A stretch of DNA of 64,000 bases from Pseudomonadota bacterium (lineage in GTDB: Bacteria > Pseudomonadota > Gammaproteobacteria > Burkholderiales > Burkholderiaceae_C): NCBI GenBank assembly GCA_020161145.1, contig JAIUPQ010000002.1, forward strand, positions 496,001-560,000. The letters are read 5' to 3'. Both the position numbers and the translations under genes were made by a program. The notes below the pieces were generated by a model. It was not told the DNA's origin. It saw only the letters and a program-made list of their open reading frames with translations, and made no database searches. Numbering within the stretch: the stretch's first letter is position 1; the number at the start of each line of letters is the position of its first letter. This document shows positions 2,387 to 11,300 of this stretch, piece by piece.

Positions 2387-3827
2387 AATCCTCATCAACT
2401 GGTCGCCGCAGGAGACGCGGGTGGCGCTGGTGGAGAACGGCGCGCTGCAAGAGCTGCACATCGAGCGCGCGCTGGAGCGCGGGCTGGTGGGCAACGTCTA
2501 CCTGGGCAAGGTGGCGCGGGTGCTGCCGGGCATGCAAAGCGCGTTCATCGACATCGGCCTGGAGCGCGCCGCCTTTTTGCACGTGGCCGATCTGCAGACG
2601 CCGTTCGGCCAGGGCCGCGACGTGCAGCCCATCGAGAAGCGCCTGTTCGAGGGCCAGAGCCTGGTCACCCAGGTCATCAAAGACCCGATCGGCTCCAAGG
2701 GCGCACGGCTGTCGACGCAGATCAGCATCGCCGGGCGGATGCTGGTTTTTCTGCCGCAGGACGACCACATCGGCATTTCGCAAAAGATAGGCTCGGCCGA
2801 GACGCGCGAGGCGCTGCGCTGTCGCATGCTGGCGCTGGTGGGCGAGGGGGGCGGCGGCTTCATCCTGCGCACCAACGCCGAGGACGCCAGCGACGCCGAG
2901 CTGGCCGACGACATCGCCTACCTGCGCAAGACCTGGGCCGACGTGCGCCAGCGGGCCAACGCCTTGCCGGCCGGCAGCCTGTTGCGTCAGGATTTGTCGC
3001 TGGCCGAGCGCGTGCTGCGCGACCTGACGGCCGACGAGACCCAGGCCATCCGCATCGACGCCAAGCTCCAGCACGACCGCCTCAAGGACTTTGCGGCGGC
3101 CTACATGCCGGCGGCCGGCGCCAAGCTCCAGCTCTACCGGGGCGAGCGGCCCATCTTCGACCTCTTCGGCATCGAGGACGACATCGCCCGCGCGCTGGCG
3201 CGCCGCGTCGATCTGAAGTCGGGCGGCTACCTCATCATCGACCAGACCGAGGCGCTGACCACCATCGACGTCAACACCGGCGGCTTCGTCGGGGCGCGCA
3301 ACTTCGACGACACCATCTTCCGCACCAACCTGGAGGCGGCCCACGCCATTGCCCGCCAGCTGCGGCTGCGCAACCTGGGCGGCATCATCATCGTGGACTT
3401 CATCGACATGGTGCAGGGCGAGCACCAGCAGGCCGTGCTGGCGGAGTTTCGCAAGCAACTGGCGCGCGACCGCACCCGCACCACGGTCAGCGGGTTCACG
3501 CAGCTGGGGCTGGTGGAGATGACGCGCAAGCGCACCCGCGAATCGCTGGCCCACATCCTCAGCGAGCCCTGCCCCACCTGCGGCGGCCAGGGCCAGGTCA
3601 AGACCGCGCGCAGCGTCTGCTACGACGTGCTGCGCGAAATCCTGCGCGAGGCCCGCCAGTTCGACCCCAAGGAGTTCCGCGTCATCGCCAGCCCCACCGT
3701 CGTCGAGATGCTGCTGGACGAGGAAAGCGCCCACCTGGCCGACCTCTCGGCCTTCATCGGCAAGCCCATCTCGCTGGCGGCCGAGCGGGGGATGAATCCG
3801 CAGCAGTACGACATCGTGTTGTTGTAG
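2379..3827 (+). CDS. rng: ribonuclease G
   Basis: RNase G is an endoribonuclease that trims the 16S rRNA 5' end and takes part in mRNA decay. The 482-aa product has the RNase E/G catalytic half without the long RNase E scaffold. An S1-like domain with the GNVYLGKV segment and AFIDIGLERAAFLH lies near residues 30-65, the metal-binding DNase I-like core contains TIDVNTGGF and IIVDFIDM, and the Zn-link cysteine pair CPTCGG lies near residue 405. The length is close to E. coli RNase G (about 490 aa). The start ATG overlaps the end of maf. The gene ends 50 bp before the convergent end of the STAND-nuclease gene. Confidence 0.95.
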   Translation: MHEILINWSPQETRVALVENGALQELHIERALERGLVGNVYLGKVARVLPGMQSAFIDIGLERAAFLHVADLQTPFGQGRDVQPIEKRLFEGQSLVTQVIKDPIGSKGARLSTQISIAGRMLVFLPQDDHIGISQKIGSAETREALRCRMLALVGEGGGGFILRTNAEDASDAELADDIAYLRKTWADVRQRANALPAGSLLRQDLSLAERVLRDLTADETQAIRIDAKLQHDRLKDFAAAYMPAAGAKLQLYRGERPIFDLFGIEDDIARALARRVDLKSGGYLIIDQTEALTTIDVNTGGFVGARNFDDTIFRTNLEAAHAIARQLRLRNLGGIIIVDFIDMVQGEHQQAVLAEFRKQLARDRTRTTVSGFTQLGLVEMTRKRTRESLAHILSEPCPTCGGQGQVKTARSVCYDVLREILREARQFDPKEFRVIASPTVVEMLLDEESAHLADLSAFIGKPISLAAERGMNPQQYDIVLL

Positions 3828-3877: not shown

Positions 3878-6800
3878 TTACTCGAACCGCTCATTGGCGG
3901 CTCGATGTTCCTCAAGTTCGCGACGTGCCTCGCGATCAATAGTCTGCTTCAGCTCATTTGTCCAGCCTGCAACTCGGTCCGCATGTTCTGGCCCAAGGAC
4001 GTGGGCCAACTCGTCGAGAAGTGGCAACTGCCGCCGAATGGTTCCTGCCAAGGATCCCCACCAACTCGGCGGAACAATGCGCGAAACCATGGATTCCGCT
4101 AGCCTGGCTGGCTCTGGGGCGTGTCGCAGCAGACAAAGTACGTGCTCAGACCATCGAGGGCCTTGCGAAGGGTTTTCTGATCCGAACGCGGGAACGAGAA
4201 GGGCGACGTGGATCCATCGGTCGGATGGACCATCCTGGCACCATTGCACAAGCGTGGCCACCGGAACCTCAGCCAAGACGCTGGGCCTGTTCCTATCTGC
4301 GAGTAAATGGCGACGCTCACAAGCACGGTCATCGGTTTCGTCACCGACTAGCGTGTCCAGGGCGATCAAAGGCTGTACACGGCATAAGGCAGCGAGCGAT
4401 TCGTTCAGTTCGTGACGGGAAAGTGTGAAATTCTCTAGCCCTTCTCGCAGAGCCGTCAGGATTCCGCGTGCTGCAGGTTCACCGTCAGGTCCGGCGGCAA
4501 ACTTTCCAATCACCTCAGCCAGTTCGTGATCGATGTGGCTACCGTGCTTGGATAGCGGCGCATGTGCGATCAAGTTGCGAGCCACATCGATGACAAGTGG
4601 CCCAATCGGGTTGGGGTTGTCGTAGATGTGCATATACAGGATGCCAATCACGACAGCCTCTCCGTCAGGCTTGATGCTCAAGCGCTGAAGGAGCTCTGCC
4701 AGATTGCGATCCGCAAGGCAATGGGTTGCGCGACCTGAGTCGAGGTCTTGGAACATCCATGCAGATACGGCTGGGTCATTCATCGACGCCAACAAGCGAG
4801 CACAGCCAAGTTCGTCCAGAGGCGCACTCAACTGCAGCACTGGCACCCACTGGGCCAAGGCGGCGCGTCTCATGGCGTCATCAAGGATGTGCTCGAACGT
4901 GCTGCGATCGCGCTTGAATACCTCGCTCAGGAAGCCGCGAAGGGTCTGCACATTGCGTTGCTCCTCAGGCGCAGCCTCGAGCGCCTGGGTTAGCGCGTTC
5001 CAGCATTTCTCAATGTCTACCACCTTGCTTGCCAAGCCAGCGCCGAACATTCGATGTCGACCCTGTCGCTTGATGACAATCAACGGCAGGACAGTTTTGA
5101 ACGCATCGGCGTCGGTCGCCACAGACTCGCCGAGTTCGCGTGCAAGTAGCTCTGCACGCTCATAGCTGGATGAGGCGCTCTCCCCGTCGGAATAGCCCAA
5201 TCCAGCCGAATGCCCATCCAGCACGATTGCTTTGACGCGCGCAACCAGCGTTTTCGGACGTGCACGCTCCTCAAGCTTGTGCAGACGAGTCCTGATGTCT
5301 GCGGGAAGCGTCTTGCTATCAAATCTAATGGTCTGTTGGACGGCAAACCACCCCTGTTCCCATCCCGCGTCCAGCAGTGGACCAGCGGCGACTTCCAACA
5401 CGTCCGCCATCCCCGCTGCCGTCCAAAGCGATCGGAAGTGTCGAGCGAGAAGTTCGCGGGCGCCATCGGCCCAGAGGTGGTCGCCTTGTGCGATTTCGAC
5501 GGCGAGTTCGATGAAGGTCCTAAACCAGGCCTGTATGTCCGCGCCGCGCGGGTTGGCACCGTAGTCGCGTACGCGTGCGCCGAACTCGAATCCGTAATGC
5601 GAGGAGAAGTGATCGGACCCTAGCGCCGATGAGAGTGCATTGAGGCCGATGGTGCCCAGCTGTGCGTCACCCGATTGGAGCGCTTTTCGAATCCAGTCGG
5701 CACGCTGGCTCTTCGTCGCATGCGTACCAGAAAGGTATGGCGTAAAGAGCGAGGCAATCACCGGTCGGGTTGGATTCGTTCTATTGTCTTCGGGCTCGGC
5801 GCGAGCGAAGGCCTCCAGCACCTCCAGGCAGTCCTCGAAGAACTCCGGCTCATACGCGATTGACCGGACGAGTTTGACCAGCCGCGACCGTGATGCGTTT
5901 GACGCCGACAGAATGTCGGCGCGCCGCTGTCCATTGACGCCACGTCTAAGCGCCTGGAGCGAGGCTGCTGGATCCACGGGTGCGACGTTGATCAAGACGT
6001 CAAGCAGACGCGGCGAAAGCCCAGCAACATCACCCAGAAATCCATCCTCGGAGAGCCAGTCGCGAACGATGCTCACGGCCCTCTGCGAGGCGTGCAGGTA
6101 GCCCAGCCGCCGAGAGAACGAGCTAAGCAAGCGACTCCGCGATGCCACTAACTTCTCGTGGATCAGCGGATATGGGATGGCTTCGAGCGCCTGACACGCC
6201 AAGGCGTTGGAGATGGCATGCGGAAGCACGGCACGCCAGCGTCCGCGGCGTTGGATCAGACCGCGGTTCTGCAACTCACTCACAGGACGGTACAGCGACT
6301 GCGCCGACCTCCCAGCAAGTGCAGCAAGCGCGCTCAACTCGCCCTCGATGTCCTCTCCATCGAAGGAGTAGACGAGTGCGCAGGCCTCTGCCGCAACCTT
6401 TAGTTCTTGCTGTACCTCTTTGCCGAGCCAGAAGAGTCGGTCGAACAGCTCTCGGTCGGTCAGGCCAGCCAGTGAGTCGTTCGTGTCCATCGTGTTCGCG
6501 AGGGCGGCTGCAACCCGGGAATTGCCGTCAGCAAAGTCGGCGATCGTCCGCACGTTCACCGGAGATATGTCCGGAAATTGCTGCTTGATCAGCTTCTCAA
6601 TGAGTTCGGACGACGCTGCCTCAAGCAGGAATACGTTGGTCTCTTGAGGCAGGTCTTCGCGTATGTCGTACTCGATGGTCAGCAGGCTGACCAGGCCCGA
6701 CTTCTTGCAGCGGGTAGTGAGTTGGTTGTGCAACTGCGATCCGCAGTTGTCAACGATCAGGATGGCGCGGCGCTGCGTGGTAATCAGCTCGTCCAAGAGC

Positions 6801-7642
6801 GCCAATGGGGATGGTTCCGGACTGTGCGCCGTATCGGTATAAGCCGCCACATCTTGTGGCAGCGCCCCTGACGCGGCGCTTTCCTCAAAGAGGGCCTGAG
6901 CAAACCGCGTCTTGCCGGTGCCAGACAACCCCGTCAGTCGAACCGACCTACCGCCAGTGCCAAGTATCTGGCGGACGCGCTGCAGTCCATCCACAAGAGA
7001 AAGCAACCGCTTGCGATCGAGCGGGTCGGAAAGGCGGTGTTTGTCATCTGGGAGGAACGGTTGTGCTATTCCACCTCGCGTGTCCGCCCATTGTCCGTAC
7101 GGCTGCCAACCTTGGCGCGGCCGACCGAGTTGGTGCTGAACCCACGCGATCAAGCCTGGGTGCCGATTCGTCCAATCGGCCAACCGCTGGGCATCGTAGA
7201 AATCACACTTCACCTTCGGAAGGTCAAACTCCGAAATGGCAGCTTGCATGGCTGCGACGCGCTTGTTGTACTCGCTATCGGTGGCAGAGTCGGACGTTGC
7301 GATGATGTAGGCGCCCTGGCCCAGGATCAGTTCCCGAATCGATGGCCTCAGCAGACCGCCAGGGCACATTTCCTTCCGAATGTCGTTGACGCGCATTCTC
7401 GTCGCCTTGACCTGGTAGCCGACGACGCTTGCAGGAAAGCAGGCTCGTTGAGCATCTGCATCCGAAAGCTGAACCCGAACGTCGATGCCACCGTCAGGTG
7501 CACGCTGGTCTCCGCCCCAGGTAACAGGGTCCGACGGCAACCCCGCGTCGGCAAGCCGTGCAATGCAAAGCCGTGCAACCAAGCTTCGGAGGTCGGCATC
7601 CGATAGCTTGGCGATATCGTGGGTGGAGACCTCGAACAACAT
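3878..7642 (-). CDS. STAND-type NTPase with N-terminal PD-(D/E)xK-like nuclease domain; candidate antiphage protein
   Basis: No close family name is recognised for this 1254-aa protein, but its plan is readable. Residues 1-180 resemble an Mrr/Cap4-type nuclease: an acidic DGGIDV segment (Asp50, Asp54) is followed by YQVK (Gln77-Lys79), the D...QxK form of the PD-(D/E)xK core. A P-loop NTPase follows, with Walker A GLSGTGKT at 238-245 and Walker B ILIVDN at 294-299, and then a winged-helix-like segment. The remaining 800 residues or so look alpha-helical and repetitive, like a sensor. STAND antiphage proteins (Avs family) share this effector-NTPase-sensor order. The gene stands alone between rng and smc, and its base composition is clearly more A/T-rich than its neighbours, which suggests transfer. 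ATG 7642 is used because upstream in-frame codons lie in or next to the glycosyltransferase relic; a longer form cannot be excluded. The defence role is inference. Confidence 0.7.
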   Translation of the reverse strand: MLFEVSTHDIAKLSDADLRSLVARLCIARLADAGLPSDPVTWGGDQRAPDGGIDVRVQLSDADAQRACFPASVVGYQVKATRMRVNDIRKEMCPGGLLRPSIRELILGQGAYIIATSDSATDSEYNKRVAAMQAAISEFDLPKVKCDFYDAQRLADWTNRHPGLIAWVQHQLGRPRQGWQPYGQWADTRGGIAQPFLPDDKHRLSDPLDRKRLLSLVDGLQRVRQILGTGGRSVRLTGLSGTGKTRFAQALFEESAASGALPQDVAAYTDTAHSPEPSPLALLDELITTQRRAILIVDNCGSQLHNQLTTRCKKSGLVSLLTIEYDIREDLPQETNVFLLEAASSELIEKLIKQQFPDISPVNVRTIADFADGNSRVAAALANTMDTNDSLAGLTDRELFDRLFWLGKEVQQELKVAAEACALVYSFDGEDIEGELSALAALAGRSAQSLYRPVSELQNRGLIQRRGRWRAVLPHAISNALACQALEAIPYPLIHEKLVASRSRLLSSFSRRLGYLHASQRAVSIVRDWLSEDGFLGDVAGLSPRLLDVLINVAPVDPAASLQALRRGVNGQRRADILSASNASRSRLVKLVRSIAYEPEFFEDCLEVLEAFARAEPEDNRTNPTRPVIASLFTPYLSGTHATKSQRADWIRKALQSGDAQLGTIGLNALSSALGSDHFSSHYGFEFGARVRDYGANPRGADIQAWFRTFIELAVEIAQGDHLWADGARELLARHFRSLWTAAGMADVLEVAAGPLLDAGWEQGWFAVQQTIRFDSKTLPADIRTRLHKLEERARPKTLVARVKAIVLDGHSAGLGYSDGESASSSYERAELLARELGESVATDADAFKTVLPLIVIKRQGRHRMFGAGLASKVVDIEKCWNALTQALEAAPEEQRNVQTLRGFLSEVFKRDRSTFEHILDDAMRRAALAQWVPVLQLSAPLDELGCARLLASMNDPAVSAWMFQDLDSGRATHCLADRNLAELLQRLSIKPDGEAVVIGILYMHIYDNPNPIGPLVIDVARNLIAHAPLSKHGSHIDHELAEVIGKFAAGPDGEPAARGILTALREGLENFTLSRHELNESLAALCRVQPLIALDTLVGDETDDRACERRHLLADRNRPSVLAEVPVATLVQWCQDGPSDRWIHVALLVPAFGSENPSQGPRWSEHVLCLLRHAPEPARLAESMVSRIVPPSWWGSLAGTIRRQLPLLDELAHVLGPEHADRVAGWTNELKQTIDREARRELEEHRAANERFE

Positions 7643-7713: not shown

Positions 7714-8271
7714 TCAGGGCCTTGCCGACAGCTCCGCCAACCACCCCTCGAACCATCGCACCAGCGCCGTCACGGTGCAATGGGTGTGGGCATACGTTTG
7801 GCTTGCGCGGCCCAGGCAATCGGCCGGTTCGGACTGCTGCCACAACCTGCGGATGGCGTCAGCCAGCGTCTGGGCATCTCCGCTGGGGCACAACAGGCCG
7901 CTTTCACCGTCGCGCACGTAGTCGTGCAGGCCTTCGGAGTCGGTGGTCACCAGCGCTTTGCCTCGCGGCATGGCGGTCGAGGTGGTGACTTGGCTGCATG
8001 GCACTTGGTCATGGACCGGCGACAGCACCGTGAAGCGGGCGTTGGCGTAGGTGCTGATGTTCTCAGCCTCGGCCAACGGCAAGCGGCCGCACACCTGCAC
8101 GTTGGGCGGTATGGTCAGACCAACGCGGCAGCGTGTAGTTGAACGAGAACCTCCGCACCGGAACGCGCGGTGCCCACGCAGGTCGTTGCGGGGCAGGGCG
8201 CCCCGCCGCCCCTGCCAGTCGGGCGCGAGTTCGCGGACGTTGAGGTTGAGGATCGGAGCTGCGGTGACCAT
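7714..8271 (-). pseudogene. glycosyltransferase (GT4-like) relic, N-terminally degraded
   Basis: The last 110 residues or so read like the C-terminal half of a group 1 glycosyltransferase: an ANARFTVL segment, HDQVPC, then a KALVTTDSEGLHDYV stretch and GESGLLCPSGD, which correspond to the nucleotide-sugar binding half. The preceding residues do not continue as a plausible N-terminal domain, and a family member should be roughly twice as long or more. The frame therefore looks like a 5'-truncated or scrambled remnant. It lies 71 bp upstream of the STAND-nuclease gene and just before smc, so it probably marks the site where the older locus was disrupted. The nominal ATG at 8271 is only the first Met in frame. 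Confidence 0.6.
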
Positions 8272-8378
8272 GGTGGCCCGGTGAGCCTGTCGCCAGGGCA
8301 CGGATGCTATGATCCAAGACCCCTGATCGGGCGCCTGAAACGGCAAAATCACACAGCAAATCAACGAGTTAGCAGGCC

Positions 8379-11300
8379 ATGCGCCTTCAGCACATCCGGC
8401 TTGCGGGCTTCAAGTCGTTCGCCGAACCCACCACCTTCCAGCTCCCCGGCCAGCGGGTCGGCGTGGTTGGCCCCAATGGTTGCGGCAAGTCCAACATCAT
8501 GGATGCCGTGCGCTGGGTGCTGGGCGAGAGCAAGGCCAGCGAGCTGCGCGGCGAGTCCATGCAGGACGTGATCTTCAACGGCTCGGGCCAGCGCAAGCCG
8601 GCCAGCCGCGCCAGCGTGGAGCTGGTGTTCAGCAACGAAGACGGCCGTGCGGGCGGCTCGTGGAACCAGTACGCCGAGATCGCCGTCAAGCGCGTGCTCA
8701 CGCGCGACGGCACCAGCAGCTACTTCATCAACAACCAGCCCGTGCGCCGGCGCGACGTGCAGGACGTCTTCCTGGGCACCGGCCTGGGCCCGCGCGCCTA
8801 CGCCATCATCGGCCAGGGCACCATCAGCCGCATCATTGAAAGCCGGCCCGAAGAGCTGCGCCTCTTTCTGGAAGAGGCGGCCGGCGTCAGCAAATACAAA
8901 GAGCGCCGCCGCGAGACCGAGAACCGGCTCAAGGACACGCGCGAAAACCTCACGCGGGTGGAAGACATCCTGCGCGAGCTGAACACCAACCTCGACAAGC
9001 TCGAGCGCCAGGCCGAGATGGCACAGCGCTACCGCGCGCTGCAAGACGAAGGCACGCGCAAGCTGCACCAGCTGTGGTTTCTCAAGCACCAGGGCGCGGC
9101 CAGCGAGGCCGAGCGCGTGGCCGTCGAGACGCGCGAGGCCGCCACGGCGCTGGAGGTCCGCTCGGCCGACCTGCGCCACACCGAGGCCCAGCTCGAAACC
9201 CTGCGCCAGCAGCATTACGCCGCCAGCGACGCGCTGCACCTGCGCCAGGGTGACCTGGCCCAGGCCGCACTGGAAGTCAGCCGGCTCGAAGAGCGCATCC
9301 GCTACGTCATCGAAGGCCGCAAGCGTGCCGAAGCCCGGCTGGCCGACCTCAGCGCGCAAAGCGAGCAGTGGCGGCTGCGCCGCACCGAGGCCGAGGCCGA
9401 GCAGACGCACATCGCCGAGCAACTGACCGCAGCCGACGAGCAGGCCCAGGTGCTGGCCGCCCAGGCCGAGGAGCAGGCTTCGGCCTTGCCCGGTTTTGAA
9501 GACGCGCTGCGCGCTGCCCAGATGGCCAGCAACAGCCAGCGCACCAGCGTGGCCCAGGTGCAGCAGCAAATCCAGGTGCTGGCGGCCGAGAGCCGCAGCG
9601 TGGACGAGCAAAGCCGCACGCTGCGCGCCCGCCGCGAGCGGTTGGCTGCCGAGCGCCAGAACCTGGCCGCCCCCGACACCCAGCGGCTGGCAGCGCTGCA
9701 GGCCCACAGCGCCGAGGCCGAGGCCCAGCGCGCCGGCACCGAGGCGCGGCTGGCCGAATTGGCCGACCAACTGCCACTGCTCGAAGCCGAGCGCCGCCGC
9801 CAGCAGGAGGCGGCCAACCATGAGGTGGCTCGCCAGGCCGACGTCAGCGCCCGGCTGGAGGCGCTGCGCGCGCTGCAAGAGAAGGTGCAGACCGGCGGCA
9901 AGCTGGGCGCCTGGCGCGACAAACACGGCCTTGGCGGCCTGCACAGCCTGTGGCAGCGGCTGCACGTGGAGCCCGGCTGGGAGGCCGCACTGGAGGCCGC
10001 GCTGCGCGAGCGCCTGCACGCGCTGGAGGTGAGCCGGCTGGACACCGTGCGCGCGTTTGCCACCGACCTGCCGCCCACCCGCCTGGCCTTTTACGCCACC
10101 GACGTGGCCACCCCGCCGGCCGCGGCGGGCCGCGCGCGCCTGCTGGATCGCGTGCGCACCCCCGAGGCCGGCGTGCAGCAGTTGCTGGCGCATTGGCTGG
10201 CCGGCGTCTACACGGTGGCCACGCTGGACGAGGCGCTGGCCCAGCGCCCGCAACTGGCGCCCGGCGAGGTGTTGATGACCCCAGGCGGCCATGCGGTGAT
10301 GGCCGGTGCGGTGAGTTTTTACGCGCCCGACTCCGAGCAGGCCGGCCTGCTGGCGCGCGCGCAGGAAATCGAGAACCTGACCCGCGAGGTGCGTGCCCAG
10401 GCGCTGCTGGCCGATGAAAGCCGGGCGGCGCTGGTGCGGCTGGATGCCCGCGTGACCGAGGCCCAGGCCCAGCTGGGCCAGGCCCGCCGCGAGGCCGGCG
10501 AGGCGCAAAGCCGCGCCCATGCCTTGCAGGTGCAGGTGCTGCAACTGGCGCAGCAGGCCGAGGCCGCCACCAGCCGGGGCGCCCAGTTGGCCGAGGAACT
10601 GGCCGAGGTGGATGGCCACCTGGAGGAGCTTGCCGAGCGCCGCGCCGTGGGCGAGGCCCGGTTTGAAGAGCTGGACGCCCAACTGGCCGACGCCCAGCAG
10701 CGCCATGCCGATCTGGACGACACCGCCATTGCCGCCGAGCGGGCACTCGCCGGTGCGCGCGACCAGCAGCGCGCGCTGGAGCGCCAGGCGCAGGACGCCC
10801 ACTACCAGCGCCGGGCGCTGGACGCGCGCCAGGGCGAGCTGGCCCGCGCGCTGGAGACGGCCAGCCAGCAAATGGCCGCCAACGCCCAGGCCGGCGAGCA
10901 GTTGCAGCTGGAGCTGGGCGGCTTCGACGACGTGGCCGCGCAAGAGGGCTTGCAGGGCGCACTGGCGCTGCGCACCGAGAAAGAGGCTGCGCTGTCGGCC
11001 GCGCGCCAGCACTATGACGAGCTGGCGGCGCAGTTGCGCAGCGTCGATGAGCAGCGCCTGGGCCACGAGCGCAGCCTGGAGCCGCTGCGCGCGCGCCTGA
11101 CGCAGCTGCAGCTCGACGCCCAGGCGGCCCAGTTGGGCGGCGCGCAATACCTGGAGCAGTTGCAGGCCGCCGAGGTGGACCTGGCCGTGCTGGCCGCCCA
11201 GGTGGCGGCCGACGGCGTGGTGCTGCACGGCCTGCAGGCCGAGATCGACCGGCTCCAGCGCGAGGTCAACGCGCTGGGGGCGGTCAACCTGGCGGCGCTG

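Follow-up and report, generated by a model that had tools for sequence, protein, structure and literature searches.

We analyzed a 64,000-nucleotide stretch of contig JAIUPQ010000002.1 (assembly GCA_020161145.1, positions 496,001 to 560,000; here called the window), in which a gene for a 1,254-residue protein lies between rng (stop codon at 3827) and smc (start codon at 8379). The names of these two neighbors, and of ligA, are ones that we take from recognition and from an earlier reading of the DNA, made without a family search. That reading, the original prediction, had proposed a solitary antiphage protein with a nuclease head, an NTPase and a sensor. The gene is an intact open reading frame (ORF) on the minus strand, from an ATG at 7642 to a stop codon at 3878, and the described single ORF and its motifs were borne out, with DGGID at residues 50 to 54, QVK at 77 to 79, GLSGTGKTR at 238 to 246 and ILIVDN at 294 to 299. 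An in-frame GTG at 7843 offers an alternative start upstream; we favor the ATG because similarity to the PADLOC model starts at residue 2 and that of most relatives at residues 1 to 3, and the starts in our homologue set, having been picked by a script near the ATG-equivalent point, carry no independent weight on this question. The base composition of the gene is foreign, with a G+C content of 59.9% and a third-position G+C content (GC3) of 66%, compared to 94.8% for rng, 90.5% for smc and 91.3% for ligA, which agrees with its description as A/T-rich. A promoter scan found 0 sites, with 0.7 expected, and 3 terminator-like sites, with 4.0 expected.

3878..7642, minus strand: PD-Lambda-4_A-like gene, 1,254 amino acids, without PD-Lambda-4_B (ORF and PADLOC PDLC03991)

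The protein matched a defense model from end to end. In PADLOC, residues 2 to 1254 aligned with positions 3 to 1283 of the 1,283 in PDLC03991 (PD-Lambda-4_A; E = 7.5e-288, 956 bits), and two shorter PD-Lambda-4_A models and one weak CARF3 model (E = 0.024) also matched. Segments of the family consensus matched only PD-Lambda-4_A models and, weakly, CARF3 in a PADLOC scan set to E values of up to 10, in which the filters drop most matches above about 0.1. Judged by its sequence, the protein is a member of the PD-Lambda-4_A family, so that it can be placed in a named family, where the original prediction could not place it in a named Avs group. NCBIfam and Pfam gave nothing above their cut-offs for the protein. 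No Avs model matched it in PADLOC at E values of up to 1, or matched the family consensus segments, and no Avs chain was returned by PDB sequence searches with the protein, with both of its halves or with the head profile; we presume that the PADLOC, PDB and NCBIfam libraries hold Avs entries. Membership by sequence in Avs (AVAST types 1 to 5) was rejected on the grounds that no Avs model or solved Avs protein matched. The proposed role as a candidate antiphage system gains support from the homology to PD-Lambda-4_A.

A table of PMC10952713 places PD-lambda-4 among the P-loop NTPases and names Vassallo et al. 2022 as its source. That work describes clones selected for phage resistance (PMC9519451), and the term PD-lambda-4 does not occur in its text as searched, a search that left its figures outside. 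The protein family is already modeled in PADLOC, and the newness of the present findings is modest: the Mrr-like head seen by profile comparison, the faster-diverging C-terminal half and the one-gene form as the rule among the relatives examined.

Relatives were collected with a motif scan of 84,980 species genomes (patterns GLSG[VT]GKTR or [EDR]F[SA][GDE]GN[AS]R[VI]A), which found 359 encoding stretches. The best 80 of the 359 were named as loci; two of these look the same as others (L147 as L037 and L136 as L085), and several lie on short contigs with incomplete flanks. The window protein and 77 of the best 80 make up the 78 full-length sequences, with L145, L166 and L169 dropped for having no match beyond residue 1190, and L087, with a split A gene, was left out of alignments and tree. 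A second comparison used 18 diverse homologues.

The N-terminal region carries the following features, all on the minus strand.

7043..7642, minus strand: N-terminal Mrr-like nuclease region, residues 1 to 200 (hhalign against 29 Mrr catalytic domains)
7481..7495, minus strand: D50-G-G-I-D54, putative catalytic acid motif (D50, G52 and D54 in 78/78 full-length and 18/18 diverse sequences)
7406..7414, minus strand: Q77-V-K79, putative catalytic QxK (Q77 and K79 in 78/78 full-length and 18/18 diverse sequences)

All 78 full-length sequences also keep E91, and the invariant head residues among the 18 diverse homologues are D50, G51, G52, D54, Q77, K79 and E91. When a head profile (residues 1 to 200, 31 sequences) was compared by hhalign with a profile of 29 Mrr catalytic domains, the probability was 64 to 69% and the E value about 5e-5 to 7e-5, with DGGID aligned on DGGID and QVK on QxK, in an alignment that spans residues 12 to 82 only. 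The score was 34.1, compared to a best of 19.3 among 200 column shuffles, and reversed alignments gave 0.1%. One of 30 loci (L190) was dropped from the Mrr profile because it had no frame with the motif, and accepting frames by motif favors motif agreement. Besides the shuffled and reversed controls, Cap4 was the sole unrelated real family used; its alignment covered 9 columns at a probability of 0.6%, a weak test with three Cap4 sequences, one of them cut 47 codons off the match, and the same weak test found no relation between Mrr and Cap4 either (0.17%). The head had been proposed to be Mrr/Cap4-like, and the Mrr part of that proposal is supported by the margin over the shuffles, whereas the Cap4 part found no such agreement with the three sequences compared. 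By this comparison the head is Mrr-like, and its acid-QxK motif and profile point with moderate probability to a PD-(D/E)xK nuclease of the Mrr type.

The NTPase follows the head, and behind it lies a segment that may be a winged helix.

6905..6931, minus strand: Walker A, G238-LSGTGKT-R246 (G238, G241, K244 and R246 invariant in 18/18)
6746..6763, minus strand: Walker B-like ILIVDN, residues 294 to 299 (D298 in 18/18 diverse and 77/78 full-length sequences)
6515..6526, minus strand: GNSR, residues 373 to 376, presumably a sensor-2-like motif (G373 invariant in 18/18)
6173..6415, minus strand: putative winged-helix-like segment, about residues 410 to 490 (weak HTH_Crp_2 and CARF3)

Invariant NTPase residues among the 18 diverse homologues were R235, G238, G241, K244, R246, D298 and G373. 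Since the head and NTPase residues are both invariant in this set, the motifs are not a chance assemblage; among the 78 full-length sequences, the invariance of Walker A and GNxR is partly built in because the loci were found through those motifs, and D50, D54, Q77, K79 and the C-terminal FE lie outside the scan patterns. The winged-helix-like segment is suggested by a sub-threshold HTH_Crp_2 match at residues 438 to 468 in Pfam and the weak CARF3 match at 436 to 481 in PADLOC. Among 18 members searched against Pfam at E values of up to 0.01, AAA_16 was found in 7 and AAA_22 in 4, and no nSTAND model was found; AAA_16 fell below the cut-off for the window protein. The family consensus gave NACHT at E = 0.12, with RapZ and SbcD_C also below the cut-off. 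We take GNxR to be closer to the sensor 2 of AAA+ proteins than to the GxP motif of STAND proteins, and assignment of the protein to STAND is plausible by layout.

The remainder of the protein behaves differently from these two parts.

3881..6040, minus strand: presumed C-terminal sensor, about residues 535 to 1254 (few matches, lower conservation, identity drop)
3881..3886, minus strand: conserved C-terminal F1253-E1254 (78/78 full-length sequences; 13/18 in the set with distant members and one broken copy)

The C-terminal part had no PDB match at E values of up to 1 and a single sub-threshold match in Pfam (NPHP3_N, E = 0.056). Mean column identity was 45% in the C-terminal half and 62% in the N-terminal half, the two halves as compared overlapping at residues 470 to 560. 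The difference is sharper in members of the E. coli type. In 100-residue segments, the protein of one genome, G701, was 87 to 99% identical to the E. coli proteins over residues 1 to 500 and 51 to 68% identical over residues 501 to 1200, and its identity to an Enterobacter plasmid copy was 64 to 78% at first and then 40 to 61%. Because the three E. coli proteins are 94 to 100% identical to one another, this step amounts to one independent comparison, plus the milder Enterobacter one. At the DNA level, 145 of 5,426 E. coli genomes matched a query of A plus the second gene, B, none over 80% of the query, and among the matches listed 7 of 8 E. coli genomes stop at base 1641, which is residue 547. 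The trend is milder in the clade of the window protein, where identity is lowest in the last two segments (39 to 50% in residues 1101 to 1200). Given the well-kept effector-NTPase half and the faster-changing C-terminal half, the C-terminal part may be a diversifying sensor. The effector-NTPase-sensor plan first proposed gains some support from the homology to PD-Lambda-4_A, the Mrr-like profile and the identity drop after about residue 500, with the head and P-loop resting on sequence and the sensor role suggested by divergence.

PD-lambda-4 is treated here as a two-gene system, as implied by the existence of a PD-Lambda-4_B model (PDLC03992). A profile search did not find B in the genome of the window, so the gene is solitary, as had been claimed, and the arrangement with B adjoining A is lacking. 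In a set of 21 genomes and plasmid records with A, 20 were likewise without B. The set consists of 16 of the 18 A-bearing genomes in the family, order and phylum samples (G483 and G517, which have fragments, were excluded) together with 5 of the 42 plasmid records; it includes one genome with a split A gene (G424) and four distant members (G182, G256, G606 and G962), and for plasmids the plasmid alone was searched. Only G701 has B, which starts 28 nucleotides after the stop codon of A. A tblastn search with the G701 B protein gave nothing at E values of up to 0.01 in all 80 named loci, some with short flanks. The homologues on two Enterobacter plasmids, which are sister to the G701 A protein and 56 to 57% identical to it, have no B on either plasmid. 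Three E. coli records have a B-like gene behind A, encoding 248 amino acids in two of them and 303 in the third; in the two former (L208:9894-10806 and L210:9898-10810) the 248-residue gene is followed by a small ORF and A is intact, and B may be dispensable. The PD-Lambda-4_B model also matched a control E. coli genome where the A model found nothing, and relatives of B may occur without A. In PMC9519451, a multi-gene system entered the counts only if one region contained all of its components. Since all components were required, solitary A genes would go uncounted there if PD-lambda-4 was treated as a two-gene system.

The gene is patchily distributed. It occurred in one of 16 genus genomes, the window's own (two of the other 15 are less than 90% complete), and in 9 of 399 genomes of the family, 3 of 399 of the order sample and 8 of 398 of the phylum sample, counting its own genome each time and including some fragments. 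The pattern that would speak against the original prediction, a gene of ordinary composition at this site in all relatives, was not seen. The best 80 relatives come from what we take, from the genome names, to be Proteobacteria, Firmicutes, Chloroflexi, Bacteroidetes, Acidobacteria and other phyla. Matches were found in 42 plasmid records and in no phage record, and no viral contig matched a single-protein query that reaches close relatives only. In the tree, the window protein grouped with relatives labeled Acidovorax, Paraburkholderia, Dyella, Frateuria, Pseudoxanthomonas and Xanthomonas (support 0.94 to 1.0), a mixture of genera that suggests horizontal spread, and the gene was probably acquired horizontally.

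The original prediction had the gene wedged between two core genes, and its position is as stated. Reading about 7 kb upstream of smc in 12 genus-mates (of 13 with an smc match; G003, on a short contig, was left out) revealed no homologue of rng in any of them, and insertion into a conserved rng-smc interval was rejected on this evidence; rng is present somewhere in all 16 genus genomes. Because the adjacency is missing in these genus-mates, the site looks like a rearrangement junction, and the gene seems to occupy a point of chromosomal rearrangement. A block with what we take to be a dapE-like gene and its neighbors lies upstream of smc in one genus-mate (G010) and on another contig in the window's own genome; part of it is near smc in G005 and none was seen in G006, differences that mark the smc flank as variable. 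The junction also holds a gene remnant, 71 bp upstream of the gene on the same strand and outside the defense system, for which no match was found upstream of smc in the 12 genus-mates. Terminal repeats around the window gene were considered and rejected, as only short repeats were found.

7714..8364, minus strand: truncated remnant of a group 1 glycosyltransferase gene (Glyco_trans_1_4 profile, positions 54 to 141 of 142, E = 2.8e-11)

The neighborhoods of relatives were surveyed by scanning 106 of 553 neighbor ORFs, with crude ORF calling and with families taken from the first 25 of 158 matched. A conserved neighbor gene was rejected, the largest neighbor cluster covering at most 3 of the 80 loci. 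The two largest clusters look like integrases and type I methylases, labels that we presume by recognition, the integrase one being backed by a family match. An integrase gene is nearby in two of the three E. coli records, one adjoining ssrA. At L041:3613-7118 genes for a BrxC/D-like ATPase and a helicase precede the homologue, which places it in a defense-island setting. At L037:724-5637 (genome G220) the homologue has inverted repeats on both sides, about 4.3 kb apart (131 nucleotides at 98% and 82 nucleotides at 94% complementarity), which might mark a single-gene mobile unit.

We consider it reasonably probable that the gene was acquired horizontally and that it encodes an antiphage receptor made of a single PD-Lambda-4_A-family protein, with a C-terminal sensor, an NTPase switch and an Mrr-like cutting head. 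The C-terminal part (about residues 535 to 1254) would recognize a product of the phage, after which the P-loop NTPase would change state together with the winged-helix-like module, probably by oligomerizing, and the Mrr-like PD-(D/E)xK head (D54, Q77 and K79) would cut DNA. The sequence comparisons bear directly on the family identity, the conserved motifs, the profile similarity to Mrr, the foreign composition, the lack of B and the unequal divergence of the two halves in E. coli-type members, whereas nuclease activity, oligomerization, the kind of ligand and the fate of the infected cell are inferred. As far as sequence can tell, the gene is real and probably a functional defense candidate.

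Several observations weigh against this reading. The hhalign probability for the head is moderate; Pfam assigned no nuclease to the head consensus, for which the best match was a glycosyl hydrolase below the threshold (E = 0.0066), and when the PDB was searched with the head profile, ribosomal S6 came first (E = 0.24) and no nuclease appeared. Pfam assigned no STAND domain, and a PDB search with the N-terminal half gave MsbA, a P-loop protein, as its best match (E = 0.0041) and the plant NLR Roq1 at 0.14, but neither a nuclease nor an Avs chain. Behind the identity step stand three E. coli proteins that are nearly the same protein, defense genes are scattered among the 106 neighbor ORFs scanned, and this genome lacks the second gene of the known E. 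coli system.

An alternative that we judge unlikely is a type IV-like restriction enzyme, in which head and NTPase would cut DNA that carries a modification or other mark, and the C-terminal part would recognize DNA and not a phage protein. The profile similarity of the head to Mrr fits this alternative, Mrr being itself classed with the type IV restriction enzymes; McrBC, too, contains a P-loop NTPase. The screen of PMC9519451 also fits, since direct immunity was given there by 7 of the 11 systems that had features of DNA binding or cleavage, a count not specific to PD-lambda-4. In contrast, Pfam found no DNA-binding domain in the C-terminal part, and divergence of that part with a fixed head in E. 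coli-type members fits a changing ligand better. The gene could also be an orphan, inactive without a B-type protein or the remnant of a two-gene system; this we hold to be improbable. It draws on the B gene just after A in G701 and the similar genes after A in the three E. coli records, against which stand the rarity of B among A-bearing genomes and records, its absence from both closest Enterobacter plasmids and from the relatives' loci, the shortened B-like gene in two of three E. coli records, and an intact reading frame here that keeps all putative catalytic residues. An ATPase of housekeeping or regulatory function whose nuclease-like N terminus has degenerated, which the Pfam matches, weak AAA only, would allow, is highly improbable given the patchy occurrence, foreign composition, plasmid carriage, conserved nuclease-like residues and homology to a selected defense system, and the fixed-site presence in most relatives that would support it was not seen.

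If the gene is an antiphage receptor, the E. coli two-gene system would be mainly a one-protein receptor across many phyla, of which counts requiring both genes miss most; two-gene rules would miss those of the 359 stretches that lack B. The faster-changing C-terminal half would imply many phage triggers, and E. coli-type members, with their conserved effector half and divergent C-terminal half, would give a way to approach the trigger by comparing C-terminal parts. More broadly, PD-Lambda-4_A might, instead of being half of a two-gene system, form the center of a large class, distinct from Avs1 to Avs5, of immune receptors that have an Mrr head and an NTPase and are mostly encoded by one gene; we find the case for and against this proposal evenly balanced.

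Among known proteins, Mrr (Mrr_cat, PF04471) shares the DGGxD...QxK arrangement and a profile similarity well above shuffled controls, whereas Mrr_cat was not listed at E values of up to 0.01 in any of the 18 members, and Mrr is not known to have an NTPase or a long C-terminal part. Cap4, the CBASS effector nuclease (PF14130), is likewise a nuclease with a QxK motif and differs in the minimal alignment obtained with the three sequences used. Avs4 and other Avs (AVAST) proteins share the general layout, in which a nuclease head and an NTPase are followed by a long C-terminal part, and the Avs4 head is of the Mrr type; in contrast to them, the window protein matches no Avs model in PADLOC or Avs chain in the PDB. 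A literature search turned up no paper joining Avs4, Mrr and portal. The nuclease effectors of Avs1 to Avs4 are described as acting upon recognition of terminase, portal or Ksap1 (PMC12931631, PMC12724215). The closest likeness is to PD-lambda-4 of E. coli, with a full-length PD-Lambda-4_A alignment, the same motifs and 31% identity to the E. coli-type A protein of G701, whereas the window gene is solitary, with no PD-Lambda-4_B in its genome, and belongs to a separate clade.

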